The translations under genes and the position numbers were made by a program. From contig JAISOC010000030.1 of the NCBI GenBank assembly GCA_031275915.1, positions 1 to 19,205 of the forward strand: DNA of 19,205 nucleotides. Direction: 5' to 3'. The notes under the pieces were generated by a model. It worked only from the letters and a program-made list of their open reading frames with translations, searched no databases and was not told the origin of the DNA. The number at the start of each line of letters is the position of its first letter. Position 1 is the first letter of the stretch. Positions 304-18,854 of the stretch are shown here, piece by piece. Origin of the DNA: Holosporales bacterium. Its GTDB lineage: Bacteria > Pseudomonadota > Alphaproteobacteria > RUG11792.

Positions 304-511
304 AGTACTCTTCCTTTTTGGAGGAACTCCATTGTACCAGATTACTTCCGTTTGTCTGTCAAGGATCACTTCGTTCTCCTCCTTGACCAATCGCTCTGCA
401 ATTGAGATCTCCGCTGCTGTTCCAAAAAGGAAAATACAGTATATGTATAGGAAAAAAAAGAAGGTAAGAGTGTACACTTGCTCACTTCGTTCGCTAACGC
501 TACTTCTGGCA
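304..511 (+). repeat. Two-module palindromic repeat, copy 1 (partly decayed)
   Basis: Module A spans about 304-438 and module B about 470-511. The outer termini (CTTTTTGGAGGAACTCCA and GTTCCAAAAAGG) and the tail TTGCTCACTTCGTTCGCTA match the other copies. The left arm of the central stem is of the TGTCTGTCAAGGA type seen in copies 4 and 5. The right arm reads CCTTGACCAA as in copies 2 and 3, so the inner stem no longer pairs fully. The following right-arm part (about 395-420) has diverged. This is the least intact of the five copies. Confidence 0.85.
331..362 (-). promoter_or_regulatory. Sigma-70-like promoter carried by repeat copy 1
   Basis: On the minus strand TTGACA (357-362) is followed after 20 bp by TACAAT (331-336). 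It would transcribe leftwards, away from rpoD and against the transposase remnant. The other four copies have a 19-bp spacer, so this version is probably weaker. This is sequence match only. Confidence 0.35.
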
Positions 512-626
512 GGGTCTATAGAAGGTAAGATTACATTTAGTTATTAATCCCAAACGACAAAGTGTCTGTGATATTTCCCTTTCATCAAAACACATTTGAC
601 TCTCTCTCTGGGTTAAGTAATGTACC

Positions 627-2531
627 TCAGCTGTCCAGAAAACTCCTCAGTTTCCTGGCTCTGCTGGGGTGTTTGAGTTTTCGAAGGGCCTTTGCTTCTA
701 TTTGTCTGATTCTTTCCCTTGTTACAGCGAATTGCTGTCCGACTTCTTCCAGAGTGTGATCCGTATGAAGTCCTATTCCAAATCTCATTCTAAGAACCTT
801 TTCTTCTCGAGCTGTCAAAGTGGAAAGAACTTTTGTTGTTGCGTCCTTCAGATTAGATTGGATTGCAGCATCAACAGGCATTACTGCCCCCTTGTCTTCT
901 ATAAAATCTCCAAGATGGCTTTCATCCTCATCCCCTATTGGAGTTTCAAGACTTATTGGATCTTTTGCTATTTTCATAACTTTTCTGACCTTATCAACTG
1001 GCATTGCCAATTTTTCTGCCAACTCTTCATGTGTTGCCTCCCTGCCAAGCTCACTCATTAATTGCTTGGACATCCTAACTAATTTGTTAATTGTTTCTAT
1101 CATATGGACTGGAATTCTAATTGTTCTTGCTTGATCCGCTATAGCCCTAGTAATAGCCTGCCTTATCCACCATGTTGCGTATGTTGAAAATTTATACCCC
1201 CTTTTATATTCAAACTTATCCACAGCTTTCATTAGACCTATGTTCCCCTCCTGTATTAGATCAAGGAACTGCAATCCTCTGTTTGTATATCTTTTTGCAA
1301 TAGATATCACGAGTCGTAGATTAGCCTCTGTCATTTCTTTTTTTGCTCTCGATTCATCTCTCTCCGCTTTTTGAATAGACTGAAATATACTTCTGAACAT
1401 TACAAAAGGAAGGTGCGTCGCATCAGCAACTTGTTTTGCAGCCTGCACAAGATTTTCAAAAATAGAAATGTTGTCTTTGTAAAACTTTTTCCATCCTCTC
1501 AATGAGAGGCGTGAAATCCCCTCCAGCCATTTGTTATCAAAATTTTTACCAGTAAATTCGTTCACAACATCCCGCCTTTTTAATTTGTATTTTTCAGAGA
1601 GAGATAAGAGTTTTCTCTCCATTATAGGAATCTCCGACATAAAAGAGGCGTGCATCTGCTTAAGAGACTCTATTCTTCTATCATTCAATCTTATTTCGCT
1701 AAAAATCTCTAAGGCTTCTTTTTTCAGAGATCCATATTCTTCATTTGTTGCCAATTTTTCTATGCAAAAATTCAAAGATTTTTGTTTTCTGAAGATTTTC
1801 CCAGAAACTTTCACAAATTTATGTAACGAATCGAGTAATTTTTGCTTTGCTTCTTGATCATCATCAATTACAACAGACTCCATCAATAAATCCTCTGCTA
1901 TTTGATCATCGTCCAAATCATCTGTAGATTCATCAGATGATGCTTCATCCATAGAAGAGCTCTCACTGGCCACTATGTCTTTTACAAGTAATATATTGCC
2001 CTCAAGTTTTTCAATAAAACCTGCAATCATTTCTTTAGTAAGAGGGCTTTCACAAAAAGCTGTATACAAATTCTCTTGAGCTGTCTCTATCTTTTTTGCT
2101 ATGGAAATTTCTCCTTCCCTAGACAAGAGATTAACATTTCCCATTTCTCTCAAATATATCTTTATCGGATCATCAGTCTTAATTTCTTCAGGTACTTCAT
2201 CTGGTTGATCGCTATCAACTTGAATGATGTCAGTATTTTCCTTATCTTCATTATCAATAATTGACATCTCATCTTCTGGAGATTGAGAATTGAGAATCAT
2301 TGCCTCTTCTTCTTCGACGCTTATGATATTCACGTCGTTATCAGTTATGTACGCTACAATTTCCGATAATGCATCAGAATCATATTCTGAACCTGGCAAA
2401 GCATCATTCAACTCATCATGTGTGATATATCCTTTGTTAATTCCCAATTTAACAAGTCCAATAACATTTGGATCAGATGCTATCTGCAATCCTTCAATTC
2501 TATCGTCATCTTTTTTGTTTCTTGTCATCAT
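627..2531 (-). CDS. rpoD: RNA polymerase primary sigma factor RpoD (sigma-70)
   Basis: This is the housekeeping sigma factor that directs RNA polymerase to -35/-10 promoters. The 634-residue product has the family architecture: an acidic N-terminal region 1.1, region 1.2 from about residue 121 ([11 protein letters not shown]), and a long acidic non-conserved insert (about 150-380). Region 2 follows from about 392, with [14 protein letters not shown], the [17 protein letters not shown] core-binding segment and [10 protein letters not shown] for -10 recognition. The region 4 helix-turn-helix is near the end ([19 protein letters not shown]). It lies 3 nt after dnaG, so the two form an operon. 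The Shine-Dalgarno GAGGG directly abuts the first ATG and suits the second ATG (2528) better, so the start may be 3 nt later. Confidence 0.97.
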
Positions 2532-2534
2532 CCC

Positions 2535-4172
2535 TCACTTTTTCGACAAATTAAGTTTCAAGGCTCTCAGCCTTTCCCAAGAATCATTTCTAAGATCTTT
2601 TTTAAATTCTTCCTCTGCAAGTTTTAAATCTCTGGAATATTCATCTCTGAACACGTGATTTCTATATACATCATACCAAAAATCAAGAGAATTATCTTGA
2701 CTAAAATTGCAGTATTTACCAGCTATTTTCCCCAACTTAATTACATCATCATCGTGTAGCTCTCTTTCATTTAACAGGCAATCCTTCACATTTTCCAAAA
2801 AATCATTTGAAAAAATGATACACGATAGCTGCTCCGCAATTTCCGGCAAAATAGCCTTATCCTTAACTATAACGTATAACAAAATAGCTTCTCTCAACAA
2901 AGCATTGTTTTTTTTATCAACAAACAGTGGCCCAACCGTCCTGGGCATTTCTCTTTTACCTTTGTTGACAGCTCTGATTCTATCTTTAATCGCAGATATA
3001 TATAAATTTCTTAGCTCAATATTGTTAATAATAAATAGCTTCTCAACGATCTCTTTTCTCCATGCAGCAATATACTCAGGAGTTTTCACAACCATTCGAC
3101 TATAAGCATCTGTAAAATTTTCCCATAAAAAATCTATAAGATATAAGGAATTCTTCAATAATATCTCCATGCTCTCCACGGATTTTTCACGAATATACAA
3201 ATCTGGATCATACCCACTTGGCATTTTGCAAAATCTCAGTGTTTTTCCCGGTTGAATATATTCAAGAGCAACATAGGCGGCTCTTTGCATAGCACTGTAT
3301 CCAGCCTCATCCCCATCAAAACATATTATTGGTTCATTGCAATGCCTCCATAGATTTAGCAAGTGTTCGCTGGAAAATGAGGTTCCCATGGAAGCGACAG
3401 TTGTGTGAAATCCAAATTTATGCATCATCACAACGTCCATATACCCTTCAACAACTATATATTGATTGTTCTTAGACACATTTTTGCTGGCTATGTTATA
3501 TCCATATAAAACTTCTCTTTTCTGAAAAATTGCAGATTCTGCGGAATTTATATATTTTGGCTGTTCATCTTTCTGCAAAGTTCTTGCCCCAAAGGCTATA
3601 ATCGACCCTCTTGGGTCAGTAATCGGAAAAATTAGCCTATTAGTAAATTTAGTAACCCACGCTTCTTTAACAGCAGGATATCCTATTTTCTCCATTAAAG
3701 GTAAGATGTTTTGGGGACAAAACCCAATTTGAAACAGCCTTATAGTCTCTTGATCTAAACCTCTTTTATGGCAGTATTCAAGAACTTCATTGTTGTTCAA
3801 CAACTGCCTAGCAAAAAATTTTGAACATTCATCCATTATATTTTTATAATTATTATCCAGTTCTTTAAAGGAATGTGCTGGTAATTTCACTCCAATCTCA
3901 TGAGCCATTTGCTCCACGGCCTGCATGAAAGTCACTCCTTTTGATTGCACAATATATGAAAAAATATCCCCCTTTGCCCCACACCCAAAGCAATAGTATT
4001 TTCCTTTTTCATCATTAACAAAGAAGGAAGCAGTTTTTTCGCTGTGAAAAGGACAATGCCCAACCAACTCTCTACCCTTTCTGATTAGTTTAACGTCTCT
4101 GCCAACTATCTCAGACAAGGCGACTTTTGATCGGATATTGTCTAATATAACATTTAAGTCTGTCGTTCTCAT
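2535..4172 (-). CDS. dnaG: DNA primase DnaG
   Basis: DnaG makes RNA primers at the replication fork together with DnaB helicase. From the ATG at 4172 the product has 545 residues. The N-terminal CHC2 zinc-binding domain has ligands Cys40, His43, Cys61 and Cys64 (GHCPFHSEK ... YYCFGCGAKGD). The TOPRIM catalytic domain follows with VVEGYMDVVMMHKFGF and the acidic motif CFDGDEAGYSAMQRAA. The C-terminal helicase-binding part is present, and the total is slightly shorter than many DnaG proteins. The frame extends upstream to a GTG at 4226, but that would overlap the divergent antiporter gene and add an atypical N-terminus. The ATG at 4172 matches the family start. It forms an operon with rpoD (3-nt gap), as in many proteobacteria. 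Confidence 0.96.
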   Translation of the reverse strand: MRTTDLNVILDNIRSKVALSEIVGRDVKLIRKGRELVGHCPFHSEKTASFFVNDEKGKYYCFGCGAKGDIFSYIVQSKGVTFMQAVEQMAHEIGVKLPAHSFKELDNNYKNIMDECSKFFARQLLNNNEVLEYCHKRGLDQETIRLFQIGFCPQNILPLMEKIGYPAVKEAWVTKFTNRLIFPITDPRGSIIAFGARTLQKDEQPKYINSAESAIFQKREVLYGYNIASKNVSKNNQYIVVEGYMDVVMMHKFGFHTTVASMGTSFSSEHLLNLWRHCNEPIICFDGDEAGYSAMQRAAYVALEYIQPGKTLRFCKMPSGYDPDLYIREKSVESMEILLKNSLYLIDFLWENFTDAYSRMVVKTPEYIAAWRKEIVEKLFIINNIELRNLYISAIKDRIRAVNKGKREMPRTVGPLFVDKKNNALLREAILLYVIVKDKAILPEIAEQLSCIIFSNDFLENVKDCLLNERELHDDDVIKLGKIAGKYCNFSQDNSLDFWYDVYRNHVFRDEYSRDLKLAEEEFKKDLRNDSWERLRALKLNLSKK

Positions 4173-4199
4173 ACAGGCTAATGATACAATACTGAGACC

Positions 4200-5456
4200 A
4201 TGAATAACGAGTATGTTTTTGCACACCTAACAGTAATACTGTTTATAGCTGCTTTGTCGGGACTACTCCTGGCAAGGTTTAGACAGCCTGTCATGTTGGG
4301 ATACATACTAGCAGGAGTGATATTTGGCCCATGTGGATATGGCTATATGTCATCTCTTGAACAAATCAAATTCTATTCAGATCTTGGAATAATTCTCCTT
4401 CTGTTCGTGATCGGTATGGAGATAAACATAAAGTCATTCCTTAAAATGTGGAAAATTCCGACCTTCTTCACAGCCATACAAATTCTGATAAATGTGATTA
4501 TAGCTGTTTTATGCGCAAACTTTCTTGATGTATCTATATACGCATCTCTATTAGCGGCTTTCATAATTTCTCTTTCTTCCACAGCCACAATTGTGAAAGT
4601 TTTGGAATATATTGGAGAATTACGGACAGATGTTGGACATATATCAATTGGAGTATTAATAGCGCAAGATATAGCAGTTGTTCCAATGATGCTCGTTATA
4701 AAGCAATGTAATGGTGGAATTTTCAATATATCTATGCTTTTAGATTTAGCCATGGCAGTGCTGTTGGTCTTTGTTCTCATAAGATACATCGGCAGATCCG
4801 AAGGAATAAAACTACCTCTCAGAGATTTGATATCAACCCCAGATCTCACCCCAGTTGTTACTCTTGGTTTGTGCTTCACATCTGCATCTTTGGTTGTTTT
4901 TTTAGGGTTATCAGAGGCATACGGAGCTTTTTTAGCCGGACTTTTCATAGGAAACACAAGAGAAAGACAGCATATCATGGCCAGTATCAAACCCATACAA
5001 GATGTGTTGCTAATGGTGTTTTTCCTCTCTGTCGGACTTATGTTTGACCTGAATTTCTTGATAAAAAATTGGATACTAGTAATAGGAACATTGCTCTTTG
5101 CAACTGTGTGGAAAGTAATATCAAACACCGTAATTTTGAGGAAATTTTCTATAGAATTGGCCAAAGCATCCTCAATTGGTATTATTCTCGCTCAACTTGG
5201 AGAGTTTTCTCTGATCCTCTCAAATGTTGCAATTAGTTCTAATATAATAGACATACACGGACAAAAGCTGATAGTGTGCGTCACGGCTCTCTCGTTATCA
5301 ATCAGCCCTTTCTTCATAGCTCTCTCAACAAGAACCAAAAATTTATCATTTGTCGGAGATAATTCCCTATTTTCAGTCATGAAAATAATCTTTTCCGGTA
5401 AGTTTGCGAAAGAAGTCCGCAACCTAGTTACCAAAAGCTCGCAACTAAAAGATTAA
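4200..5456 (+). CDS. CPA2-family (Kef-type) cation/proton antiporter membrane protein
   Basis: This is an inner-membrane monovalent cation:proton antiporter or glutathione-regulated-type potassium efflux protein. The 418 residues are mostly hydrophobic, with about 12 membrane segments. Family motifs include VMLGYILAGVIFGPCGYG, SLSSTATIVKVLEYIGEL, the core LIAQDIAVVPMM, EAYGAFLAGLFIGNT, VFFLSVGLMFDL and LAQLGEFSLILS. Full KefB/KefC proteins carry a cytoplasmic RCK/TrkA-N nucleotide-binding domain after the membrane part. Here the protein ends soon after the last helix, so that regulatory domain is absent. Transported ion and regulation cannot be told from sequence. It diverges from dnaG with only 27 bp between start codons, so at least one promoter must overlap coding sequence. 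It converges on bamE with a 12-bp gap. Confidence 0.9.
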   Translation: MNNEYVFAHLTVILFIAALSGLLLARFRQPVMLGYILAGVIFGPCGYGYMSSLEQIKFYSDLGIILLLFVIGMEINIKSFLKMWKIPTFFTAIQILINVIIAVLCANFLDVSIYASLLAAFIISLSSTATIVKVLEYIGELRTDVGHISIGVLIAQDIAVVPMMLVIKQCNGGIFNISMLLDLAMAVLLVFVLIRYIGRSEGIKLPLRDLISTPDLTPVVTLGLCFTSASLVVFLGLSEAYGAFLAGLFIGNTRERQHIMASIKPIQDVLLMVFFLSVGLMFDLNFLIKNWILVIGTLLFATVWKVISNTVILRKFSIELAKASSIGIILAQLGEFSLILSNVAISSNIIDIHGQKLIVCVTALSLSISPFFIALSTRTKNLSFVGDNSLFSVMKIIFSGKFAKEVRNLVTKSSQLKD

Positions 5457-5468
5457 TCACACCTCAAG

Positions 5469-5945
5469 CTATTTTTTCTTATCATCAGTAAATCTACTCA
5501 TATACTTACCAAGACCTCCAAATGTTTCACGAATAGCTCCACGTGTCTTTCCTTTAGTCTCTGTTTTCTCTGAAACAGTCGATATTGTCTTTTCATAACT
5601 ACTTTCTTTAACAGATTTAACAATTCCATTTCTATCGAAAGTCACAATAACAGTCACCTGATCAATGACAACAGGCGTCAAAAAGCTAGTCTTTTCTGTC
5701 CTCTTGGATACATAATACCAACTATGTGAACCATCTTCAGAAACAACGGACGACCTCATAGTTGGAGCACCAAAAGTCAAATACACTGCCCTGGCATCAT
5801 CTTTGCCAACCGTTATCTTTTTGAAATGTTCACGCTTTACTGCATATCCGTGATTAATCACAGTCTTTTCACAAGCAGAAGTCATAAAAAATACAGCAAA
5901 CACCGCCAGAAGTAGCGTTAGCGAGTGAAACGAGCAAGCATACAC
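5469..5945 (-). CDS. bamE: Outer-membrane assembly lipoprotein BamE (SmpA/OmlA family)
   Basis: BamE is a small outer-membrane lipoprotein of the BAM beta-barrel insertion complex. The mature part matches the SmpA/OmlA fold: HGYAVKREHFKKITVGKDD, a conserved turn LTFGAPT, SWYYVSKRTE, PVVIDQVTVIVTFDRNGIV and a C-terminal GGLGKYM. The hydrophobic segment LTLLLAVFAVFFMTSAC ends at the presumed lipidated cysteine, though Thr at -3 is not a classical lipobox. I chose GTG 5945, which has AAGG five bases upstream and yields 158 residues. The ATG at 5885 would remove the signal peptide, and ATG 6116 would add the whole repeat hairpin. Residues 1-14 or so lie in module B of repeat copy 2. It lies downstream of rplQ on the same strand. 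The family call is firm; the start is uncertain. Confidence 0.85.
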   Translation of the reverse strand: MYACSFHSLTLLLAVFAVFFMTSACEKTVINHGYAVKREHFKKITVGKDDARAVYLTFGAPTMRSSVVSEDGSHSWYYVSKRTEKTSFLTPVVIDQVTVIVTFDRNGIVKSVKESSYEKTISTVSEKTETKGKTRGAIRETFGGLGKYMSRFTDDKKK

Positions 5946-6109
5946 TCTTGCCTTATATCTCTCTCCATACCCTACAGTATTTTTCCTTTTTGGAACGAAA
6001 AAACGTCCACAGCTTACAAGGTATTTGGTCAAGGTGGAGAGCGAAGCGGACCTTGACCAAATTTGCCGAGTAAGCTGTACAATGGAGTTCCTCCAAAAAG
6101 GAAAGTACT
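5905..6109 (-). repeat. Two-module palindromic repeat, copy 2
   Basis: Module B is 5905-5946 and module A 5976-6109. The outer inverted repeats are CCTTTTTGGAAC and GTTCCTCCAAAAAGG. The middle stem is GCTTAC (6012-6017) with GTAAGC (6070-6075). The inner stem is ATTTGGTCAAGGT (6023-6035) with ACCTTGACCAAAT (6050-6062), a perfect 13 bp closing on a loop containing GCGAAGC. It fills most of the gap between rplQ and bamE, and its module B is read as the beginning of bamE. Confidence 0.92.
6053..6083 (+). promoter_or_regulatory. Sigma-70-like promoter carried by repeat copy 2 (antisense to rplQ)
   Basis: TTGACC (6053-6058), a 19-bp spacer and TACAAT (6078-6083) lie on the plus strand. The -35 hexamer is in the right arm of the inner stem. 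Transcription would run antisense into rplQ. This is motif evidence only. Confidence 0.35.
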
Positions 6110-6180
6110 TAGGCATTGTTGGAAACTTTTCTAACGAAAGTTCCGTATTATTTGATTTCAAGATAACATTCCTCATATCT

Positions 6181-6552
6181 TTATAAATTAACACTATTTT
6201 TCTCGACAAGTTCAATAATGGCCATGGGAGCTGCATCTCCATACCTGAATCCAGCTTTCATAATTCTTACATAGCCTCCAGGCCTATCTTTAAACCTCTC
6301 GACTATATCATCAAACAATTTTTTCACAACTGATTCTTTCTGAAGTCTTGCAACAGCCATCCTTTTCGCGTGCAAAGTCCCTTTTCTAGCCATAGTTATC
6401 ATTTTCTCGGCAGCTGGTCGAAGTTCTTTTGCCTTTGGTAAGGTCGTTCTAATTTGCTCATGCTCAAACAAAGAACACATCATGGCTCTCAACATAGCCT
6501 TCCTATGCGAACTCGTTCTATTTAATCTTCTCTTTGCAAAACCATGCCTCAT
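6181..6552 (-). CDS. rplQ: 50S ribosomal protein L17
   Basis: L17 is a large-subunit protein near the tunnel exit. The 123-residue product opens with the family signature [20 protein letters not shown] and continues with [20 protein letters not shown] and [19 protein letters not shown], ending with IELVE. Length and motifs are typical. A GGAG lies 9 nt before the ATG. It follows rpoA by 25 nt and is the last gene of the ribosomal cluster before repeat copy 2 and bamE. The rpoA-rplQ order is the usual end of the alpha operon. Confidence 0.97.
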
Positions 6553-6577
6553 TTTTCATTTCTCCAAAACATCTTCA

Positions 6578-7606
6578 TTAACTAAGCTGATCATCCAATC
6601 TCTTTGCAAGTCCATCTATATTTTCAGGAGGCCAACCAGGAACTGTCATTCCGAAATTAAGATCCATATCGACAAGCAAATTCTTTATTTCATTCAGCGA
6701 TTTGCGACCAAAATTCGGAGTCTTCAACATATCTGCTTCCGTCCTTTGTATGAGATCTCCTATATAAAATATATTTTCGTTCTTCAAACAATTTGCTGAC
6801 CTAACTGATAATTCGAGCTCATCAACCTTCCGCAGCAAATTTTTATTGAACGGAAACTCATCTTTTATTTCATCCGCATTGTATGACTGAAACTCTTCAA
6901 AATCAACAAATGTAGCAAAATGGTCTCTAAGAATTGCTCCAGCTTCCGCTATCGCATCATCAGGTCTAATCGATCCATCAGTTTTGACCTTTACTACTAG
7001 TTTATCGTAATCCGTTCTCTGTCCAACTCTTGTCTGTTCCACCTTAAAATCAACAAGGGTAATTGGGCTATATATCGCATCAACAAATATCACTCCTATC
7101 GGTTTTTCATCTATTCTTCTATTATTGGCAGAAACATACCCTGTCCCACAATCAGCAGTAATCTCCATGTTCATATGTCCCCCATCCTCAACATGACATA
7201 TAACATGGTCTGGATCCATAATTTCAACATCAGCAGAACAATCTATATCAGATGCCTTGACAAGTTTTTTCCCAGCTGCACTCACGTGCATTTTTCGACT
7301 TCTACCTCCATGCAATTTCAATCTCAAAGTCTTCAAATTCAATATGATCTCAGGAACATCTTCTCTCACCCCAGGAATCGCTGAAAATTCATGAGCAACC
7401 CCCTCTATTTTCACGGAAGTAATAGCTGATCCAGGAATAGATGACAGAAGAACCCTTCTCAAAGCATTCCCAACGGTAGTACCAAATCCTCTTTCAAGAG
7501 GACATATTACAACAGTTCCATCTCTCAATTTTTCATCTGAATACGAAACCTCTGCCTTATTAGGTTTTATCATCATTTTCCAAGTAGTACTCATAATCTT
7601 CAACAA
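6578..7606 (-). CDS. rpoA: DNA-directed RNA polymerase alpha subunit
   Basis: The alpha subunit dimerises to scaffold beta and beta-prime, and its C-terminal domain contacts UP elements and activators. The N-terminal domain shows [30 protein letters not shown] and [17 protein letters not shown]. The C-terminal domain has [16 protein letters not shown] and [16 protein letters not shown]. Total 342 residues, which is usual. Two starts are possible. The TTG at 7606 has GGGAG seven bases upstream, which I favour. The ATG at 7594 gives the N-terminus most like other alphaproteobacteria but has no good ribosome-binding site. It lies between rpsK and rplQ in the alpha operon. Confidence 0.96.
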
Positions 7607-7635
7607 AACGCTCCCGCTTTATAAAAAAAAACAAC

Positions 7636-8028
7636 TTAATTTCTTCTCGCCTTTGGAGGTCGACACCCATTGTGAGGCAAAGGAGAAGCATCCCTAATGG
7701 AGGTCACCGTAAATCCAGCCGCCTGCAAAGACCTAATAGCAGTCTCTCTGCCAGATCCAGGTCCTCTAACAACCACACTAACATTCTTGACCCCATGCTC
7801 AGCTGCCTTCTTGGCAACATCCTCTGCTGCCAATTGAGCTGCATATGGAGTGGACTTCCTTGATCCCTTAAATCCAACAACCCCGGCAGAACCTCCAACT
7901 ATTGTATTACCGTGCTCATCAGTTATAGTCACAATCGTATTGTTAAAACTGGCATTAATATGAGCAACGGCATTAACAATATTTTTCCTCTCTCTCTTCT
8001 TAACTCTCCCAACCTGTTTCTGTGCCAT
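7636..8028 (-). CDS. rpsK: 30S ribosomal protein S11
   Basis: S11 lies on the platform of the small subunit and helps shape the mRNA exit region. The 130-residue product has [48 protein letters not shown] and the C-terminal [18 protein letters not shown]. All are family hallmarks and the length is full. AAGGA lies 9 nt before the ATG. It sits between rpsM (23 nt upstream) and rpoA (29 nt downstream), the standard alpha-operon order. Confidence 0.98.
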
Positions 8029-8430: not shown

Positions 8431-9081
8431 TTATTCTCCTATCTTCAAAATTTTTAACACAGACTTCGTTACACTATCGAGTGCTTCATCAGCCTGAACG
8501 CTATATAAAATACCAGATTTATCGTAAAAATCAATCAAAGGATGAGTTTTTTCATGATATTCGCACAATCTTTTTCTGAGAGACTCCTCATTGTCGTCAT
8601 CCCTTGTCTCAAATTCCGTTCCTCTGCACACGTCGCAAACCCCCTCAATCCTCGTGTTATTAAAGAATTCATTGTATATCTTTCCACACTCTGAACACCT
8701 AAATCTTCCAGTAATTCTCTTTAAAATAACATCATCATCCATCACAAAATTAATAACTTTTTCAACTTCTTCATAAGACGAATCAGCCATCTTGCTTAAG
8801 GCATCAGCTTGCTCAAGAGTTCTTGGGAATCCATCAAAAATAACATTCCTGCCGTCTAATCTCTCTATTTCCTCTTCTATAAGCTCAATTGTAACATGTC
8901 CAGGTAACAATGCTCCAGTATTTATAATTTCCTCTATAGTTCTCCCATCATCAATTACTTTCTCTTTATTGGCCCTTATTAAATCTCCTGTTGAAACCGC
9001 AACAAATCCGAATTTCAAAGTAAGAATCTCAACCTGAGTTCCCTTGCCGCTTCCCGGAGCTCCTAAAAATACTACCCACAT
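8431..9081 (-). CDS. adk: Adenylate kinase (zinc-binding LID type)
   Basis: Adk converts ATP + AMP to 2 ADP in the cytoplasm. The 216-residue product has the P-loop [10 protein letters not shown] (residues 7-16), the NMP-binding TGDLIR and the signature FDGFPRT (82-88). It has a long LID with four cysteines, Cys129, Cys132, Cys149 and Cys152, in two CxxC pairs. This marks the structural zinc-binding form common in Gram-positives and found in some proteobacteria, not the E. coli type. GAGGAGG lies 7 nt before the ATG. Placement between secY and rpsM is the conserved arrangement in alphaproteobacteria. The gap to secY carries repeat copy 3. Confidence 0.97.
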
Positions 9082-9100
9082 GTTATGGCCTCCTCGTTAA

Positions 9101-9308
9101 CATTGCCAGAAGTAGCGTTAGCGAACGAAGTGAGCAAGCGTACACACCAACATTCATTTCCTCTTCTATCCTCAGTATTTTTCTTTTTTGGAACGAAAAA
9201 ACGTTCACAGATTGCAAGGCATTTGGTCAAGGTGGAGAGCGAAGCGGACCTTGACCAAATTCGCCGAGCAATCGGTATAATGGAGTTCCTCCAAAAATGA
9301 ACAATACT
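9101..9308 (-). repeat. Two-module palindromic repeat, copy 3
   Basis: Module B is about 9101-9146 and module A 9174-9308. The middle stem is GATTGC (9210-9215) with GCAATC (9268-9273). The inner stem is ATTTGGTCAAGGT (9221-9233) with ACCTTGACCAAAT (9248-9260). It takes up most of the 282-base gap between secY and adk. Module B ends about 20 bases before the adk start codon, leaving the adk ribosome-binding site intact. Confidence 0.92.
9251..9281 (+). promoter_or_regulatory. Sigma-70-like promoter carried by repeat copy 3 (antisense to secY)
   Basis: TTGACC (9251-9256), 19 bp, and a perfect TATAAT (9276-9281) lie on the plus strand. Transcription would run antisense into the 3' end of secY. 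This is motif evidence only; the 19-bp spacer is longer than the 17-bp optimum. Confidence 0.4.
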
Positions 9309-9363
9309 TTTGGAGACTAATTGGAATACCTGACAAATCAATTTTGCTATTTTTTTCATAGAA

Positions 9364-11195: not shown

Positions 11196-11199
11196 AAAA

Positions 11200-11727
11200 C
11201 TACTCCACAATTTTAATCATGTGAATAACCTTTTTTATCAAAGATCTCACAGAATTGCTATCAACAAGCTCTTTTTCCTTTCCAATTTTGCCAAGTCCAA
11301 GAGATTTCAGATATAAACTTTGTTTCTTGTTTCTCCTGGTAGAGCTGCCCGTCTGAATTATCCGTATCATTTTTTGAAATTTCCTTTCTTTAATTGCCAC
11401 AGAACTGGCTGCTTTTTCCATGTTTTCTTCAGTAGAGGATACTGAAACCTTTTCAACCACATCCGTTATTCCTGCTTTTGTTTTTTCAACCTCTGCAGAT
11501 TTTAAAGAAGTTTTAGTGTTTTCGGCTTTTATGACAGGCTTAACCTTTTGTTCTTTTGTTGGTGAAGACTTGTCAACAGTCTTAACTGTCTTTGCAACAG
11601 TCACTTTCGATTCCTTCTTAATGCTCTTGGCCTTAGGGGAAGGCTTCTTGTTTGCTACTGCAGTTGTCTTTTTTTCAACAACTTTCACCGACTTTTTAGA
11701 TGGAGTTTTTTTTGTTGTCTCTGTCAT
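11200..11727 (-). CDS. rpmD: 50S ribosomal protein L30 with a long lysine-rich N-terminal extension
   Basis: The last 56 residues (from 120) are L30: MIRIIQTGSSTRR, LYLKSLGLGKIGKEKEL and VRSLIKKVIHMIKIVE. The normal bacterial protein is only about 60 residues. Here 119 residues precede it, rich in Lys, Thr, Ser, Val and Ala with Pro (TKKTPSKKSVKVV, KKPSPKAKSIKK), with no recognisable fold. They resemble histone-H1-like or disordered tails. GGAGG lies about 5 nt before ATG 11727; the frame extends to a TTG at 11745. An internal ATG at 11370, exactly at the L30 domain start, has AAGGA 11 nt upstream. A short, normal L30 could therefore also be made. Position between rpsE and rplO is standard. 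Confidence 0.9.
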   Translation of the reverse strand: MTETTKKTPSKKSVKVVEKKTTAVANKKPSPKAKSIKKESKVTVAKTVKTVDKSSPTKEQKVKPVIKAENTKTSLKSAEVEKTKAGITDVVEKVSVSSTEENMEKAASSVAIKERKFQKMIRIIQTGSSTRRNKKQSLYLKSLGLGKIGKEKELVDSNSVRSLIKKVIHMIKIVE

Positions 11728-11840
11728 TGTCCCTCCACAATCCAAAGGCGAGCCACCGCCGCCACCACAAACAACCCATTCTGCGCAAAATGTCCCACAT
11801 ATCCCCCTAAAATCTCATTGCCCATAACAAATCTTCTCAT
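11724..11840 (-). CDS. Possible 38-residue small ORF between rpsE and rpmD
   Basis: An ATG at 11840 overlaps the rpsE stop (ATGA), and the frame's TGA (11724-11726) overlaps the rpmD ATG (ATGA). The predicted 38-residue peptide begins [16 protein letters not shown] and has a hydrophobic run [16 protein letters not shown] that could be one membrane segment. GGAG lies 10 nt before the ATG, in the last rpsE codons. I do not recognise it. The DNA is more GC-rich than its surroundings near 11745-11765. It may be a real coupled small protein, a translational linker, or chance: the rpmD frame is also open over most of the stretch. Confidence 0.4.
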
Positions 11841-12421: not shown

Positions 12422-12429
12422 AATAATCC

Positions 12430-12792
12430 CTAAAAATTCAACCCATTTTCTCTTGCGCTATCTGCAAGAACCTTAACACGACCATGATATAGAAATCCAG
12501 ATCTATCAAAAACTACATCAGCTATCTTCTTGGATTTCGCTTTCTCTGCTATGGTTTTTCCAACGTATACAGCTGCCTCTTTGTTTCCTCCATTTTTAAT
12601 GGATTTCTTACCATCTCTTGATAAAGTTGAAGCACTTACAACCACTTTTTCTCCATTTTGATCAAGAATCTGAGCATACATATGATTGTTGGTCCTATTA
12701 ATAACCAACCTGTATCTCCCCTTAATAGTCTTGGAGATTTTGAAACGCTGCCTGATTTTTCTTCTTTCTCGCAATTTTCCTGATATATCCAT
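12430..12792 (-). CDS. rplR: 50S ribosomal protein L18
   Basis: L18 binds 5S rRNA with L5 in the central protuberance. The 120-residue protein has the basic start [15 protein letters not shown], then the fold core [56 protein letters not shown] and the C-terminal [18 protein letters not shown], diagnostic of the family. Full length. It is 2 nt after rplF and 8 nt before rpsE in spc-operon order. Confidence 0.98.
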
Positions 12793-12794
12793 AA

Positions 12795-13328
12795 TTACTT
12801 CTTCTTCCCCTCTTTCCTATATATAAATTCACCAACTTTCATGACCCCTTTGCCCTTGTATGGCTCTGGCTTTCTATAACTCCTGAACAAAGCCGCTATG
12901 TCCCCAACCTGCTTCTTGGAGTGTCCCTTAACAACTATTGTTGTTGGCTTCGGACATTCTATCGTTATTTCCTCTGGGATATCATAATTAATATCATGGC
13001 TGTATCCGAGCTGCAAAGTCAGTCTCTTTCCATTCACTGCCGCCTTATATCCAACTCCAACCATCTCAAGCTCAACCTTAAATCCCTTGTCCAATCCATA
13101 CACTATATTGAAGACATTTTTCCTGGAAGTTCCCCAAAGGGCTCTCGTCTGCTGCTCTTCATTAACCGGTCTGAAAATAATTCCATTTTCAATTTTGGTA
13201 ACCTCAATACATGAAGGAACCTCGTATTTTTCCTCAATTTTTCCTTTTTTAAAGGTCAAAACATTCCCATCAATGGTGTGTTCAATACCACTTGGAATAT
13301 CTACAGGATGTTTACCAACTCTCGACAT
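12795..13328 (-). CDS. rplF: 50S ribosomal protein L6
   Basis: L6 lies near the sarcin-ricin loop and the factor-binding site of the large subunit. The 177-residue product begins MSRVGKHPVDIPSG and has the two similar L6 domains. Domain 2 contains VEMVGVGYKA, LQLGYSHDINYDIP, the TTIVVKGHSKKQVGDIAA helix and the terminal RKPEPYKGKGVMKVGEFIYRK-type stretch. Length is typical. It lies 21 nt after rpsH and 2 nt before rplR. Confidence 0.98.
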   Translation of the reverse strand: MSRVGKHPVDIPSGIEHTIDGNVLTFKKGKIEEKYEVPSCIEVTKIENGIIFRPVNEEQQTRALWGTSRKNVFNIVYGLDKGFKVELEMVGVGYKAAVNGKRLTLQLGYSHDINYDIPEEITIECPKPTTIVVKGHSKKQVGDIAALFRSYRKPEPYKGKGVMKVGEFIYRKEGKKK

Positions 13329-13349
13329 ATATTTCTCTCTAATACTTCT

Positions 13350-13751
13350 CTAAAACACAGAACAAATAACTTCTCCACCTATAGATTGTTTCCTTGCCTC
13401 AACATCGGACATAATTCCTCTATTAGTGGACAATATATTTATTCCCAACCCATTCTTCACAAAAGGCAAATCCTTGATTGAAGAATACTCTCTTCGACCA
13501 GGTTTTGAAATCCTCTTTATCTCATATATAACCGGCTTACCCTCAAAATATTTTAATTCTATTTTAAAGCAATTACGGCCAGTTTTTGCGCACTTCTCAA
13601 CATTATAGCCCCTAATATACCCCTCGTCCAGAAGCACTTTCAAAACTCCATCTCTCATTTTTGACACAGGAGAATACAGATGCTTCTTATAAACCATCTG
13701 TGCATTTCTAATTCTTGTGATCAAGTCGCTGATTGGATCAATAACACTCAT
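13350..13751 (-). CDS. rpsH: 30S ribosomal protein S8
   Basis: S8 is a primary 16S rRNA-binding protein, and in E. coli it also represses the spc operon. The 133-residue product has [42 protein letters not shown] and the RNA-binding C-terminus [20 protein letters not shown]. It ends GGEVICSVF, the usual GGE-C-V terminus. A strong AGGAGG precedes the ATG. It lies 15 nt after rpsN. No S8-binding leader was identified here. Confidence 0.98.
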
Positions 13752-13766
13752 CTATATCTCTCCTCC

Positions 13767-14072
13767 TCACCAACTCGACTTCACAACACCAGGAAGCAGC
13801 CCAAAAGATCCGAGATCTCTCAAAGCTATCCTAGACATCCCAAATTTTCTGTAATACCCTCTTGGCCTTCCAGTTAATGAACATCTATTTCTGAACCTTA
13901 CTTTCGATGTATTTCGGGGCATTTCAGCCAACTTATGCACCGCCTGCATCCTATCTTCAAAAGATGTCTCTTTATTCATAATAATCTCTTTCAAAGATTT
14001 TCTCTTGTTAAATCCACTTTCACTCAATTTCTTTCTTAAATTGTTGTGTTCAATTGAACTTTTTTTTGCCAT
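13767..14072 (-). CDS. rpsN: 30S ribosomal protein S14 (zinc-free type)
   Basis: S14 is a head protein of the small subunit near the A site. The 101-residue length and the absence of CxxC pairs identify the long, zinc-independent form usual in proteobacteria. Visible motifs are [28 protein letters not shown] and the invariant C-terminal [19 protein letters not shown] with [12 protein letters not shown] lies 5 nt before the ATG. It lies 10 nt after rplE. Confidence 0.98.
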
Positions 14073-14082
14073 ATATTCTCCA

Positions 14083-14622
14083 TTAACTAGTGAAAGGCAT
14101 ATTAAATGCCTTCAAAAGTGCCAACGCTTCTTTATCAGATTTGGTTGTCGTACAAATTGTGATATCAAACCCTCTGATCTTGTCTATCTTGTCATAATTA
14201 ATTTCTGGGAAAACTATCTGTTCCTTTATTCCCATTGAAAAATTTCCATGCCCATCGAAACTTCTGCTGGAAAGACCTCTGAAATCTCTGACTCTCGGAA
14301 GAGCCATATATATGAGCCTATCCATAAACTCATACATCCTTTCCTTTCTGATAGTTACCTTCACCCCAAGTTTCATTCCAGTTCTGAGCTTAAATCCTGC
14401 TATAGATTGTTTCGCTTTCGTTACAATTGGTTTTTGTCCAGAAATCAAGGTTATTTCATCTATAACTGAAGCCAAAACCTTATTGTCTTGAGCAACATCA
14501 GATGAAGTGCAATTCAAAACTATTTTCTCAAGCCTCGGAACTCTCATATCATTCCTGATGCCTAGTTCCTTCTTCAGGCTCTCCTTTATAACATTTTCGT
14601 ATTTCTGCTTCAAATAACTCAT
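14083..14622 (-). CDS. rplE: 50S ribosomal protein L5
   Basis: L5 binds 5S rRNA and contacts S13 and P-site tRNA. The 179-residue product has [73 protein letters not shown] and the terminal [21 protein letters not shown]. Full length. The ATG overlaps the rplX stop by 4 nt (ATGA), so translation is probably coupled. Confidence 0.98.
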
Positions 14623-14939
14623 AAACTGACTCCAGATTTCTTAAAATATCGAATTTTTTGTCCATTTTCATTCAATTTATAGCCAACCTTTGAAGGCTTA
14701 TCTGTTGAAGGATCAATCAACGAAACATTGGAAATAGCAATTGGCATTTCTTTTTTGAATGCTCCCTGTGGATGCCTGTAATCTGGTTTAACGTTCCTCA
14801 CAACAACATTCACATTTTCAACAAGGACCTTCCCTTCCGCCAGAAAAACCTTCTGCACAGCCCCTCTCTTGCCCTTGTGTGATCCTGTTATCACTTCAAC
14901 CACATCCCCTTTTTTTATCTTAAATTTTTTCTGCGTCAT
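14619..14939 (-). CDS. rplX: 50S ribosomal protein L24
   Basis: L24 starts large-subunit assembly by binding the 5' part of 23S rRNA. The 106-residue product has the KOW motif KGDVVEVITGSHKGKRGAVQKVF at about residues 10-32, then VLVENVNVVVRNVKP, the QGAFKKEMPIAISNVSLIDP stretch and a C-terminal KVGYKLNENGQKIRYFKKSG. It lies 2 nt after rplN, and its stop overlaps the rplE start. Confidence 0.98.
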   Translation of the reverse strand: MTQKKFKIKKGDVVEVITGSHKGKRGAVQKVFLAEGKVLVENVNVVVRNVKPDYRHPQGAFKKEMPIAISNVSLIDPSTDKPSKVGYKLNENGQKIRYFKKSGVSL

Positions 14940-14941
14940 AA

Positions 14942-15310
14942 TTATAAAACCTCCGGAGCCAGCGATATTATCTTCATATATCCTGCATTTCTGAGCTCTC
15001 TCGTCACTGGACCAAATATACGACTTCCAATGGGCTCTCCCTGTTTATCTATCAAGACAACCGCATTTCTATCGAAAAAGATCTGCATACCATCTTTGCG
15101 CCTCACAGGATGCTTCGTTCTCACAATAACTGCCTTGTGTATATCACCCTTTTTGACCTTACCTCTCGGGATAGCATCTTTTATAGTAACCACAATAACA
15201 TCTCCAACCCCAGCATATCTCCTCTTAGATCCTCCAAGAACCTTAATACACAAAACCTCTTTTGCTCCTGAATTATCTGCAACTCCCATTCTAGATTCTG
15301 CTTGAATCAT
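14942..15310 (-). CDS. rplN: 50S ribosomal protein L14
   Basis: L14 contacts the small subunit in an intersubunit bridge. The 122-residue product starts [19 protein letters not shown] and shows [46 protein letters not shown] and the C-terminal [20 protein letters not shown]. All are family constants. Its ATG overlaps the rpsQ stop by 4 nt, giving tight coupling. Confidence 0.98.
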
Positions 15311-15558
15311 TTTGAACCTCCAAGATGAACCTTAGAATCAACAACCCATTTTTTGGTCTTCGAAATAGGACGAGACTCAACGATCTTCACATAATCTCCA
15401 ATTTTATAAGCGTTTTCTGCGTCGTGAACAGCATATTTCTTATGTTTCTTTACATATTTTTTATAAAGAGGATGCATAACTCTGTTCTCAACTCGAACAT
15501 GAACTGTCCTATCTTCTTTATCGCTCACAACAAAACCTTGTAACACACGCCTAGGCAT
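15307..15558 (-). CDS. rpsQ: 30S ribosomal protein S17
   Basis: S17 is a small-subunit primary rRNA-binding protein with an OB fold. The 83-residue product begins [19 protein letters not shown] and has [20 protein letters not shown], the [19 protein letters not shown] segment and [11 protein letters not shown]. Length is typical. GGAG lies 6 nt before the ATG. It lies 9 nt after rpmC, and its stop overlaps the rplN start. Confidence 0.98.
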
Positions 15559-15567
15559 CTTTTTCTC

Positions 15568-15759
15568 CTAATTATTCTTCAATTGACGCAATCGCGTCTT
15601 AACTCTCGCTATATTTTTTTTACATTCCCTCACTGCAGATGTTTTCACATCCTGTGTTGTCTTCATAAGAATTCTGAGATTCATATGCTCCTTTTTAAAA
15701 GTCGCACACATTTCACAAAGCTCTTTTGAATCTTTTTTCAACAATTCCATAAACCTCAT
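15568..15759 (-). CDS. rpmC: 50S ribosomal protein L29
   Basis: L29 is a small helical hairpin near the tunnel exit of the large subunit. The 63-residue product has the expected two-helix pattern (LLKKDSKELCEM ... FKKEHMNLRILMKT ... RECKKNIARVKTRLRQLKNN) and the conserved place between L16 and S17. It is somewhat divergent: the usual FNLRFQ-type stretch is MNLRILMK, and three cysteines are present. AGGAGG lies 9 nt before ATG 15759; ATG 15750 is a less likely start. Confidence 0.93.
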   Translation of the reverse strand: MRFMELLKKDSKELCEMCATFKKEHMNLRILMKTTQDVKTSAVRECKKNIARVKTRLRQLKNN

Positions 15760-15772
15760 ATGTTAAATCCTC

Positions 15773-16183
15773 CTAAACTATACGCCTAACAAATTTCGTA
15801 TTAATTGGAAGCTTAGACGAAGCAAGCTTCAAAGCCTCCTCTGCCACGTTTTCCGGAACTCCATCGATCTCAAACATTATGCGTCCAGGATGAACCCTGG
15901 CTGCCCAATATTCATTTGATCCTTTGCCGCTTCCCATTCTGACTTCCGCTGGTTTTTTAGAAACAGGAATATCAGGAAAAATTCTGATCCACATGCGCCC
16001 TGCTCTCTTCATATATCTCGAAATCGCCCTTCTGGCAGATTCAATCTGTCTAGCGGTGAGTCTCGCTGGTTCAATTGCCTTCAAACCATAGCTACCATAA
16101 CTCACAGTCGATCCAGCAATCGTAACTCCTTTAATTCTGCCCTTAAAAGCTTTTCTGAACTTTGTTTTTTTAGGCGACATCAT
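15773..16183 (-). CDS. rplP: 50S ribosomal protein L16
   Basis: L16 contacts A-site tRNA and aids peptidyl transferase centre assembly. The 136-residue product has [77 protein letters not shown] and KLPINTKFV. Full length. GAGGG lies 9 nt before ATG 16183. It lies 13 nt before rpmC. Upstream, a 279-base gap to rpsC holds repeat copy 4, which is unusual because rpsC and rplP normally nearly touch. Confidence 0.98.
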
Positions 16184-16207
16184 AATTAAAAACCCTCATA
16201 TAAAAAA

Positions 16208-16411
16208 TGCTAGAAGTAGCGTTAGCGAACGAAGTGAGCAAGCGTACACACCAACATCCTCTTTCTCTCCCCCTAACAGTATTTTCCTTTTTGGAACGAA
16301 AAAAAGTGAACAGATTACCGAAGTGTCTGTCAAGGAGGAGAACGAAGTGATCCTTGACAGACAAACGAAGGTAATCGGTATAATGGAGTTCCTCCAAAAA
16401 GGAAGAATACT
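16208..16411 (-). repeat. Two-module palindromic repeat, copy 4
   Basis: Module B is 16208-16251 and module A 16278-16411. The middle stem is GATTACC (16313-16319) with GGTAATC (16370-16376). The inner stem is TGTCTGTCAAGGA (16324-16336) with TCCTTGACAGACA (16351-16363), a perfect 13 bp whose sequence differs from copies 2 and 3 on both arms. It lies inside the ribosomal operon between rpsC and rplP. Confidence 0.92.
16354..16384 (+). promoter_or_regulatory. Consensus sigma-70 hexamers in repeat copy 4 (antisense to rpsC)
   Basis: Perfect TTGACA (16354-16359) and perfect TATAAT (16379-16384), separated by 19 bp, lie on the plus strand. Transcription would run antisense to rpsC. Both hexamers match consensus, but the spacer is two bases over the optimum. 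Confidence 0.45.
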
Positions 16412-16462
16412 TTAGGGAATCATCCAAAAAAGAAAAAACACTGTGCAACACATCTATTTTTT

Positions 16463-17122
16463 TCATATTTTCTTCTCTCTTGAAGTGAAATCTCCGACTT
16501 CACAATCACCTTTATATACCCACACTTTAATACCACAAGTCCCGTAGGTTGTCTTTGCAACACCAACACTGAAATCAACATCCGATCTGAAAGTATGAAG
16601 TGGCACCCTTCCCTCTCTATACCATTCCATCCTGGCAATCTCCGCTCCTCCTAGACGTCCACTGATATTACATCTGATTCCATCTGCTCCCAACTTCATA
16701 GCAGACTGCATGGCTCTTTTCATGGCTCTTCTGTAGGACACGCGCTTTTCTATCTGGGAAGCTATATTTTCTGCAATTAAATAAGCGTCAAGCTCAGGCT
16801 TTCTAATATTCGTTATATTGATGGCAACCTCCATCCCAGCTATCTTTGAAATTTCTTTTTTCAATTTTTCAAGGTCAGCTCCTCCTTTCCCTATAAGAGC
16901 TCCTGGACGAGCTGCAAATATTTCAACACTAGCTTTCTTAGCAGGTCTTTCAACAATAACTTTGGAAACTCCGGCATGTGCACAATTTTTTTGTATATAC
17001 TGCCTAATTCTCACATCCTTCAATAATTGATCTGCATAATCTTTTTTGTTGGCATACCACCTAGATTCCCAGGTTCTGAGTATCCCTAATCTCAAACCAA
17101 TTGGATTAACTTTCTGTCCCAT
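16463..17122 (-). CDS. rpsC: 30S ribosomal protein S3
   Basis: S3 lines the mRNA entry site of the small subunit and has helicase activity with S4 and S5. From ATG 17122 the product has 219 residues. It shows [14 protein letters not shown], the KH domain with [57 protein letters not shown] and the C-terminal domain [20 protein letters not shown], with [14 protein letters not shown]. The frame extends to a TTG at 17146, but the MGQKVNP start is invariant and a GAGGG lies 7 nt upstream. It lies 4 nt after rplV. Repeat copy 4 follows. Confidence 0.98.
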
Positions 17123-17126
17123 GCCT

Positions 17127-17489
17127 CTACCCTCTCTGCTCAACAATTATGCTCAGGTGACTAAAGGGTTTGCGAACGCGGCCTCCCCTTCCCCTACCTC
17201 TCGGATGAAATCTTTTCAGAGTCAGACTATGACCAACATATGCTTCCTTAACATAAAGGTTATCTATATCAAGTCCATGATTATTTTCAGCATTCGCTAT
17301 AGCTGATTGAAGAGTTTTTCTCACTTCAACAGCAATACGTCTTTTGCAATGAGTCAGAGCTCCAATTGCCCTATCTGTTCTCATTCCTCTGATCATAGCC
17401 GCCACTATGTTCAATTTCTCAGGACTAACTCTGATTTTTCTCAAAATTGCTCTGGCTGTGTTGTTATATTCCATATCTATCATCATCAT
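17127..17489 (-). CDS. rplV: 50S ribosomal protein L22
   Basis: L22 reaches into the exit tunnel with a long beta hairpin. The 120-residue product has [20 protein letters not shown], the [20 protein letters not shown] helix, [20 protein letters not shown] and the hairpin-tip [20 protein letters not shown]. Four ATG codons near the start are in frame (17489, 17486, 17483, 17474). The first overlaps the rpsS stop as ATGA and is taken here; the true start could be any of them. Confidence 0.97.
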
Positions 17490-17761
17490 TTCTTAGCCTT
17501 TTTGTCTGCTCCATGCCCATGATATGTGCGTGTTGGAGCGAATTCACCCAATTTATGGCCAACCATATTTTCATTCACAGACACAGGGATGAATTTTTTC
17601 CCATTGTGAACTCCAAATGTCACTCCAACGAATTGTGGAATGATGGTCGATCTTCTCGACCAAGTTTTTATAACATCGGAACGGCCAGAGGCCTTCACTG
17701 CCTCCGCTTTTTTCAACAGATATCCATCAAAAAAAGGTCCTTTCCAAACTGATCTTGCCAT
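17486..17761 (-). CDS. rpsS: 30S ribosomal protein S19
   Basis: S19 is a head protein of the small subunit paired with S13. The 91-residue product begins [18 protein letters not shown] and has [30 protein letters not shown] and the C-terminal [18 protein letters not shown]. All are family constants. Length is normal. It lies 11 nt after rplB, and its stop overlaps the first rplV ATG. Confidence 0.98.
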
Positions 17762-17772
17762 CTACATTCTCC

Positions 17773-18594
17773 TTATTTTCGCTTTGATATTATATACTGA
17801 TTTGTTCTTTTATTTCTACGGGTTTTCTTTCCTTTCGTGGAAATACCCCATGGAGTCACAGGATGTCTTCCTCCAGAGGTTTTCCCCTCTCCTCCTCCGT
17901 GAGGATGATCAATTGGGTTCATTGCAACTCCTCTGACACACGGCCTTTTACCAAGCCATCTGCTTCTTCCAGCTTTTCCATAGCTTCTATTTTGATGATC
18001 AGGATTCGAGACAACTCCAATGGTAGCTATGCAGTCTCCACTAACAAGTCTCTGTTCTCCTGATGGAAGCCTTAAAATTATATACACTCCATCCCTTCCA
18101 ACTATCTGAACTCCTGCTCCAGCAGATCTAGCCATCTGAGCTCCTTTCCCGATTTTGAGTTCAACATTGTGTACAACAGTTCCAACAGGAATATTCTTCA
18201 AAAGCATAGTATTGCCATTTTTTATATCTGCTTTATCAGAGGAAATAACTCTGTCTCCAACTTTTAATTTCTGAGGAGCTATGATGTATTTGTATTCATT
18301 GTCAGTGTATTTCAAAAGGGCTATGAAAGAAGTCCTATTTGGATCATATTCAATTCTTTCAACGACTGCTTCTGTATCTTTCTTATCTCTGAGGAAATCA
18401 ATAATTCTATATCTTTGCTTATGACCCCCTCCCCTATTCCAAACAGTTATGTGACCATGATTGTTCCGACCAGCCCTATCCAACTTTCTTTCTGTTAGCT
18501 TCTTTAATGGTTTTCCACGCCAAAGCTCGGATCTATCAATATTAACAAGCTGCCTCTGAGAAGTTGTGATAGATTTATATTGTTTCAGTGCCAT
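17773..18594 (-). CDS. rplB: 50S ribosomal protein L2
   Basis: L2 is a primary 23S rRNA-binding protein needed for subunit association and peptidyl transfer. The 273-residue product has the OB-fold part ([35 protein letters not shown]), the SH3-like part ([25 protein letters not shown]) and the signature [20 protein letters not shown] with the conserved histidine. AGGAG lies 11 nt before the ATG. It is the first ribosomal gene of the cluster in this window. The gene upstream is not rplW but a small lipoprotein, and the intervening 289 bases hold repeat copy 5 with a promoter aimed at rplB. Confidence 0.98.
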
Positions 18595-18641
18595 TTTACA
18601 ATTTGCTCCTGTGTTGATTTATGTTTCATTTTACTTGAAAC

Positions 18642-18854
18642 GTATTTTTTTCCTTTTTGGAGGAACTCCATTATACCGATTACCTCCGTTCGTCTGTCAA
18701 GGATCACTTCGTTCTCCTCCTTGACAGACACTTCGGTAATCTGTTCACGTTTTTTCGTTCCAAAAAGGAAAAATACTAGGGGGATAAGAGAAGGTATATA
18801 CATAGGTGTGTAAGCTTGCTCACTTCGCTCGCTGGCGCTACCTCTGGCAATGTT
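18642..18854 (+). repeat. Two-module palindromic repeat, copy 5
   Basis: Module A is 18642-18777 and module B about 18806-18854. The middle stem is GATTACC (18678-18684) with GGTAATC (18735-18741). The inner stem is GTCTGTCAAGGA (18692-18703) with TCCTTGACAGAC (18718-18729). Its orientation is opposite to copies 2-4, so its internal promoter points at rplB. Module B has several substitutions (CGCTCGCTGGCGC) relative to the others. Confidence 0.92.
18670..18700 (-). promoter_or_regulatory. Consensus sigma-70 hexamers in repeat copy 5, candidate promoter of rplB cluster
   Basis: On the minus strand a perfect TTGACA (18695-18700) and a perfect TATAAT (18670-18675) are 19 bp apart and point at rplB. 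Transcription would begin near 18663, giving a leader of about 70 nt. The leader's first bases can fold as GGAG-TTC-CTCC, and it contains the rplB ribosome-binding site. No better promoter is visible in the gap. The hexamers are read directly; use in vivo is inferred. Confidence 0.55.

Follow-up and report, generated by a model that had tools for sequence, protein, structure and literature searches.

Using profile and covariance searches, we found that a palindromic element occurs in five copies in a 19,205-nucleotide window of a Holosporales bacterium and in many more copies across the rest of its genome. The window is the whole of contig C84 of a draft assembly of 727 kb in 112 contigs, estimated to be 85% complete, and the nearest RplB relatives of the host are metagenome-assembled genomes (MAGs) titled Alphaproteobacteria (two of them from roe deer rectum and rumen), proteobacterium or Holosporales. 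The element is probably a mobile palindromic repeat, non-autonomous and belonging to one family of gut Holosporales-type alphaproteobacteria, with a core of ~200 bp that lies, in part of the copies, inside the shell of a miniature inverted-repeat transposable element (MITE). It is dispersed, was inserted lineage-specifically at the two gene junctions that we compared, has a structure that is kept by paired changes, and carries open frames. A reading made from the sequence alone had proposed a mobile two-module palindromic repeat of the sort of Rickettsia palindromic elements (RPEs) or MITEs; the dispersed copies and empty junctions support this proposal, with the correction that the MITE proper is an outer shell present on only part of the copies.

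Dispersed copies of a two-module core

Profile searches recovered all five copies at the places where the sequence-only reading had put them. Their modules, called A and B, scored 43-117 bits in the A and B profiles, versus a best score of 8 bits among the four matches at E <=10 that were obtained in 50 Markov-shuffled windows (0.96 Mb). On the minus strand, copy 1 has module A at 311-434 (nhmmer 108.5 bits; covariance model 105.9 bits) and module B at 468-511 (nhmmer 55.5 bits), and copy 5, upstream of rplB, has A at 18650-18772 and B at 18805-18849. On the plus strand lie copy 2 (B at 5905-5947, A at 5981-6103), the minus strand of which reads in frame into the predicted signal peptide of bamE, copy 3 in the adk/secY gap (B at 9104-9148, A at 9179-9301), and copy 4 in the rplP/rpsC gap (B at 16208-16252, A at 16282-16404). 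The A modules of copies 2 to 5 matched both the profile and the covariance model, with a fold prediction for copy 4 in addition, and their B modules matched the profile. The two-module build described earlier was thus recovered, with corrected sizes: 123-124 bp for A (previously ~135), 29-33 bp for the spacer (26-31), and 43-45 bp for B (~45). Every gene gap of the window longer than 100 bp (5/5) holds exactly one copy, in line with the earlier remark on large gaps, and the next largest, of 91 bp, has no copy.

DNA searches with two of the copies as queries yielded at least 51 and at least 50 matching pieces in the window's genome, numbers that are lower bounds, since the best 40 of 87 and the best 40 of 74 candidates were scored. 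We annotated 57 stretches covering 364,416 of the 727,082 bases, nearly all of them picked for having matches, and counted at least 34 full A modules, 56 A matches overall, 65 B matches, and 61 matches to an outer repeat. In 33 of the 34 full A modules, B lies upstream in the same orientation and at a fixed place, the exception being a copy that begins 12 nt away from the edge of its contig. Module B, a pyrimidine-rich spacer, and the palindromic rod A together form the core unit, which is ~200 bp long and occurs in both orientations. An outer repeat lies near 19 of the 33 B-A copies and near none of the other 14; many of the bare copies carry an A/C-rich, TATAAAC-like stretch just before B. 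Forms without A exist as well, as twelve stretches hold B and an outer repeat only. Composite forms were also seen. At L171 118-456, B flanks A on both sides in opposite orientation (B-A-B'), with a single shell end, and in three copies (L169 3675-3816, L170 6034-6176, and L168 110-252) a third repeat of ~143 bp, with the ends AGTTCTTA/TAAGAACT, interrupts A within its inner loop, where the A profile overlaps by 5-6 positions on both sides. Fragments of this third repeat also occur on contigs C13, C17, C38, and C43.

Comparison with relatives covered the junctions rpsC-rplP and secY-adk, for which gap lengths are approximate. The rpsC-rplP gap measures 279 bp in the window, versus ~11-22 bp in all 19 covering loci among L066-L085; in ten more distant loci, it ranges from -7 to 59 bp. 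Likewise, the secY-adk gap measures 282 bp in the window, versus at most 22 bp in 15 of 18 relatives (the others having 58, 61, and an extrapolated 206 bp) and -1 to 11 bp in the ten more distant loci. Because the same gaps are short in relatives, the copies at these two junctions are, judged by gap length, lineage-specific insertions. The sequence-only reading had named two outcomes that would speak against a mobile element, namely a scarcity of further copies in the genome and presence of the same sequence at the same junctions in all relatives; many further copies were found, and both compared junctions are empty in relatives. In one relative, the adk-rpsM gap spans ~784 bp (L070 19162-19960), versus at most 81 bp in the others, possibly reflecting a separate insertion.

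The outer shell

Part of the copies are enclosed by an outer shell, the repeats of which read GGGA(T/C)TGACAACTAAAT and resemble each other imperfectly over ~45 bp. Allowing up to 4 mismatches, we located 66 sites with this end pattern, of which 17 pairs within 520 bp form terminal inverted repeats. Flanking duplications of 9-10 letters were present in four of the 17 shell pairs (on C24, C65, C73, and C105) when the ends were allowed a 2-base slip, and of 8-9 bp at fixed ends, while mispaired flanks used as a control gave 8 or more letters in 1 of 272 cases. One more shell duplication was noted by eye on C73 near position 170, and the C24 shell is nested in another B module, from which its duplicated bases derive. 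With its inverted repeats, its target duplications in part of the copies, and no room for a transposase gene, the outer shell is a MITE.

Within the window, an imperfect inverted repeat at 253-551 encloses copy 1, the only shelled copy of the five. Its right arm TIRR (253-310, plus strand; nhmmer 60.9 bits) pairs with the left arm TIRL (512-551, minus strand; nhmmer 15.6 bits), which is an arm of the inverted repeat I14, and no target duplication was found at the flanks. The likeness to MITEs pointed out earlier therefore applies to the outer shell of part of the copies (in the window, to copy 1 alone) and not to the bare B-A core, which shows no target duplication. Beside copy 1, the window also holds the end of a DDE_3 transposase frame (14-148), which we take to be IS630-like; a similar stretch lies beside a copy on C17.

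At up to 2 mismatches, the end pattern occurred at 49 sites in the window's genome, at five in genome G024, at two in G013, and at none in G001 and G009. Of the five G024 sites, one (L248 472-522) resembles the shell end along 48-51 positions (21.5 bits), and the remaining four show no such match; L248 bears a second copy of the end motif ~150 bp further on. The whole A-less shell matched only the window's genome among 35 genomes searched, a set that did not include G024. Among the end-pattern sites inspected, the sole lead to a parent insertion sequence (IS) is at L255 3088-3420 on C22, where a shell-type end is followed after ~0.14 kb by a decayed transposase-like N-terminus (MGQVLHGCAKTTKTVRKEIQ...), presumably IS481-like.

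These data bear on a simpler account, in which all copies belong to one ordinary MITE and the bare B-A copies are shells that lost both inverted repeats. The same core does occur in both forms (19 copies are near at least one outer repeat and 14 are not), many bare copies share the TATAAAC-like stretch ahead of B, and the shell is not confined to the window's genome, given the similar end in G024. However, in other genera the rod A occurs with other left modules and without a recognized shell, so that the bare form looks to be the older one; the full A-less shell matched no genome but the window's among the 35; and two copies that lie within genes, mfd and ybeY, have no outer repeat. We therefore consider a single ordinary MITE unlikely, although it is the alternative that fares best. 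Under the reading of a mobile core that is housed in a shell in part of its copies, the shell would be mobilized in trans by a transposase that the 85%-complete draft either lacks or leaves unassembled, and the bare core would move by another route, or be copied in from neighboring copies, leaving no detectable duplication.

The palindromic rod and its spread among relatives

Module A comprises 124 model positions and folds as a rod. Copy 4 is predicted to form a long rod on either strand, with z-scores of -5.05 (DNA, plus strand) and -6.52 (RNA, minus strand). In an alignment of 44 A copies drawn from four genomes, the 30 tested pairs, spanning 1313 cells, were paired in 95.7% of cases versus 88.1% in shuffles, and 98 cells were changed on both sides versus 32.5 in shuffles, a count that cannot be read as a probability because the copies are related and hence not independent. 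Sliding the partners abolished the signal. The alignment left out the shortened A of L187, the full copy L202 (G024 has three full copies), and the copy at L253 in G001. Paired changes preserve the rod of A.

The covariance model matched A in 10 of 45 genomes (best 78 candidates per genome, strict filters). All ten are among the 27 of the same family, and the 18 genomes outside it gave no match. Six of the ten had not been used in building the model, three of these with weak matches only (best E ~1e-7 to 1e-6). G018 holds 17 copies with nearly identical A rods, which suggests a recent spread, and these copies carry a different left hairpin module where the contig reaches that far. G001 holds at least 77 A matches with a left module that is different again, and some of its copies have a large palindromic right module. 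The build of left module, spacer, and rod thus recurs in the family while the modules themselves differ. Another dispersed element in G024 (L203, L205-L207) and G009 (L208-L213) consists of the inner hairpin of A plus a second hairpin around GGTATAAT, without the outer stem of A; its G024 form reads GGCGCGAGTATGG.../...CCATACTCGCGCC.

A promoter embedded in the element had also been suggested. TAYAAT is present in 44/44 and TTGAC in 43/44 of the aligned A copies, and 56 of 60 further A matches (64 minus three opposite-strand duplicates and one weak match) hold both motifs at a spacing of 18-22, mostly 20. The usual optimum for such a promoter pair is 17. The suggestion hence stands as a resemblance of motifs, with a spacing that departs from the optimum. 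As none of the 30 tested pairs includes TAYAAT, the motif may be conserved for the sake of its sequence, as a promoter or for another binding function.

A strong fold in operon gaps, with an unpaired TAYAAT in 44/44 aligned copies, is also what one might expect of a vertically inherited RNA device, such as an attenuator, a terminator, or a riboswitch-like leader of ribosomal and other operons. We regard this explanation as very improbable, because the element is missing at the rpsC-rplP and secY-adk junctions of relatives, occurs in both orientations and within coding sequence, and has no match in Rfam (0 matches in the window at the gathering score, and 0 at E <=1 for 16190-16480).

Similarly slim are the chances of repetitive extragenic palindromic (REP) or bacterial interspersed mosaic elements (BIMEs) that are moved by a REP-associated tyrosine (RAYT, Y1) transposase, or of an IS200/IS605-type hairpin element. 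Such elements would share with ours the palindromic nature and a core without duplication, and Y1_Tnp fragments occur in the window's genome, G009, and G024. The single intact Y1 frame among the five genomes searched, however, is found in G013 at a 2.8-kb locus that has no A, B, or outer-repeat match, so that no RAYT gene tied to the repeats was seen in these genomes; G001, with its at least 77 A matches, has no Y1 match, and the rod of 124 positions is not a REP of 20-40 bp. A phage or plasmid origin was likewise rejected, as copy 4 had no match in phages or plasmids and the exact A end had none in viral contigs.

Copies within genes and likeness to known repeats

Two bare cores lie within conserved genes. 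The copy on C20 is contained in mfd (1090 aa; NCBIfam mfd, 892 bits) and the one on C55 in ybeY (310 aa; TIGR00043), in both cases with an unbroken reading frame and in identical orientation and frame, and no outer repeat was recognized at either copy. The insert is missing from 12/12 aligned relatives of each gene, the alignments showing 12 of 19 YbeY and 12 of 18 Mfd relatives (four of the 18 being frames of 656-689 aa, not of Mfd length), and at the position of the insert, two YbeY relatives carry loops that are shorter and different. The placement in gene junctions reported earlier is accordingly right for the five copies of the window and wrong as the sole location. Over 33 copies, 43 of 198 frames are free of stops, versus 47 of 3300 (1.4%) in mononucleotide shuffles. 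Among the A matches examined in relatives, we identified no in-gene copies. An artefact of assembly or binning is scarcely credible even for a draft MAG with several copies at contig ends and one junction in G001 (L373) that looks chimeric, since the mfd and ybeY copies are each flanked on both sides by parts of one gene in a single open frame and related copies recur in nine other genomes. The fragment joined to the A copy at L373, presumably pyrG-like, was set aside as a likely contig-end chimera.

In the window, copy 2 adjoins bamE on the minus strand, the body of which (5469-5888; Pfam BamE) was aligned with 12 relatives and the open frame of which runs on through the copy to 6242. The element leaves free only the last 10 codons ahead of the lipobox cysteine (5871-5873); an ATG occurs 4 and a GTG 10 codons before the cysteine, and the relatives have a hydrophobic stretch ahead of the lipobox in their own frame. 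Because the element-free codons are too few for a signal peptide, the start and part of the signal peptide are probably encoded by copy 2, if the protein is made as a lipoprotein. At the secY-adk and rpsC-rplP junctions, minus-strand frames at 9072-9359 (95 codons) and 16170-16466 (98 codons) span the entire inserted element, both starting with MKKI at ATGAAAAAAATAG, which is common to the two junctions and located at or just past the secY and rpsC stops. Elsewhere in the window, an open frame at 11200-11745 joins a ribosomal protein L30 domain (residues 127-177) to an N-terminal Lys/Thr/Ser-rich extension of more than 100 residues. The copies would persist as mainly selfish DNA wherever they entail neither a loss of frame nor fatal polarity, and a few would have become protein parts, in Mfd, in YbeY, and probably in the BamE signal peptide.

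Several observations weigh against a mobile repeat with such a capacity. Regarding mobility, 13 of the 17 shell pairs, copy 1 included, are without duplication, flanking direct repeats at the 14 bare cores are no longer than in shuffled flanks and reveal no target duplication, and no transposase with ends matching the shell was found at the end-pattern sites inspected. As for the rod, the number of pair types was not above shuffles in either of two alignment tests and both-side changes were not clearly above them in one, the related A copies are not independent, and they may have been homogenized by gene conversion. Regarding coding capacity, only 2 of 33 copies lie within conserved genes (plus the bamE start); in relatives, 31 A matches gave no spanning frame above 92 codons, and 6 of 60 A matches lie in stop-free frames of 91-139 codons, the identity of which was not searched. 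Finally, the genome is available as a draft assembly in 112 contigs.

Rickettsia provides the best-known examples of protein-coding palindromes, the movement of which is an open question. The Holosporales element resembles RPEs as a dispersed palindrome of 100-200 bp with open frames that sits in frame inside conserved protein genes: A, with its 124 positions, falls in the range of RPE palindromes (~105-150 bp) able to form a long stem, and mfd and ybeY provide the in-frame insertions. It differs in its host lineage, given RplB relatives among Holosporales or Alphaproteobacteria MAGs instead of Rickettsia, in having two or three modules, in the MITE shell of part of its copies, and in the small share of in-gene copies (2/33 plus the bamE start), compared to the "nearly half" stated for RPEs in the relevant passage of PMC10969869. 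Target duplication, which was not found for the core here, is marked with a question mark for RPEs in the overview given by PMC2229807. Because of the different host, the few in-gene copies, and a likeness of features as opposed to sequence homology, we do not file the element as an RPE; by analogy, it works like one, with a modularity similar to that of BOX.

The pneumococcal BOX repeats, as described in the section of PMC3049150 that treats them, likewise consist of folded modules, with open frames on both strands and repeats inserted into one another, a likeness in build only, as the Holosporales element is composed of B, A, and left and right modules that are specific to each genus. With bacterial MITEs such as Correia, RUP, and ERIC, the outer shell shares the inverted repeats, the target duplication, and the lack of room for a transposase gene, but the inspected sites revealed no parent IS that shares its ends, and the shell carries a second repeat as cargo. 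Several MITEs carry sigma-70-like promoters, according to the portion of PMC10969869 that deals with these elements. In Yersinia, the YPAL/RU-2 repeat is fused in frame and contributes part of a signal peptide, in the account that PMC2229807 gives of it, much as we infer for BamE; by that description, the hosts differ, and the Yersinia case concerns a putative new exported protein, versus an old conserved lipoprotein here. In the literature, searched for most papers at the title level and without opening those on Holospora, none of the titles listed concerns such palindromic repeats in Holosporales.

A more far-reaching notion, which we hold to be doubtful, is that the A rod is an old modular plug-in, kept across nine genera with swapped neighbor modules and a promoter-like TTGAC/TAYAAT pair at nearly constant spacing, that drops into operons and frames and was co-opted as coding sequence in Mfd, YbeY, and the BamE start. 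Protein-coding palindromes would then have arisen a second time, independently and outside Rickettsiales. If true, such a plug-in system would feed new transcripts as well as new protein segments. Under the reading of a mobile core that lies in a MITE shell in part of its copies, the finding adds a comparable repeat in another reduced-genome group of alphaproteobacteria, in which the two layers can be separated, the shell having target duplications in some copies and the core showing none. The near-identical copies in G018 would open young insertion events to study, and the Mfd and YbeY inserts offer natural in-frame cases for testing what such a repeat does to the proteins that carry it.

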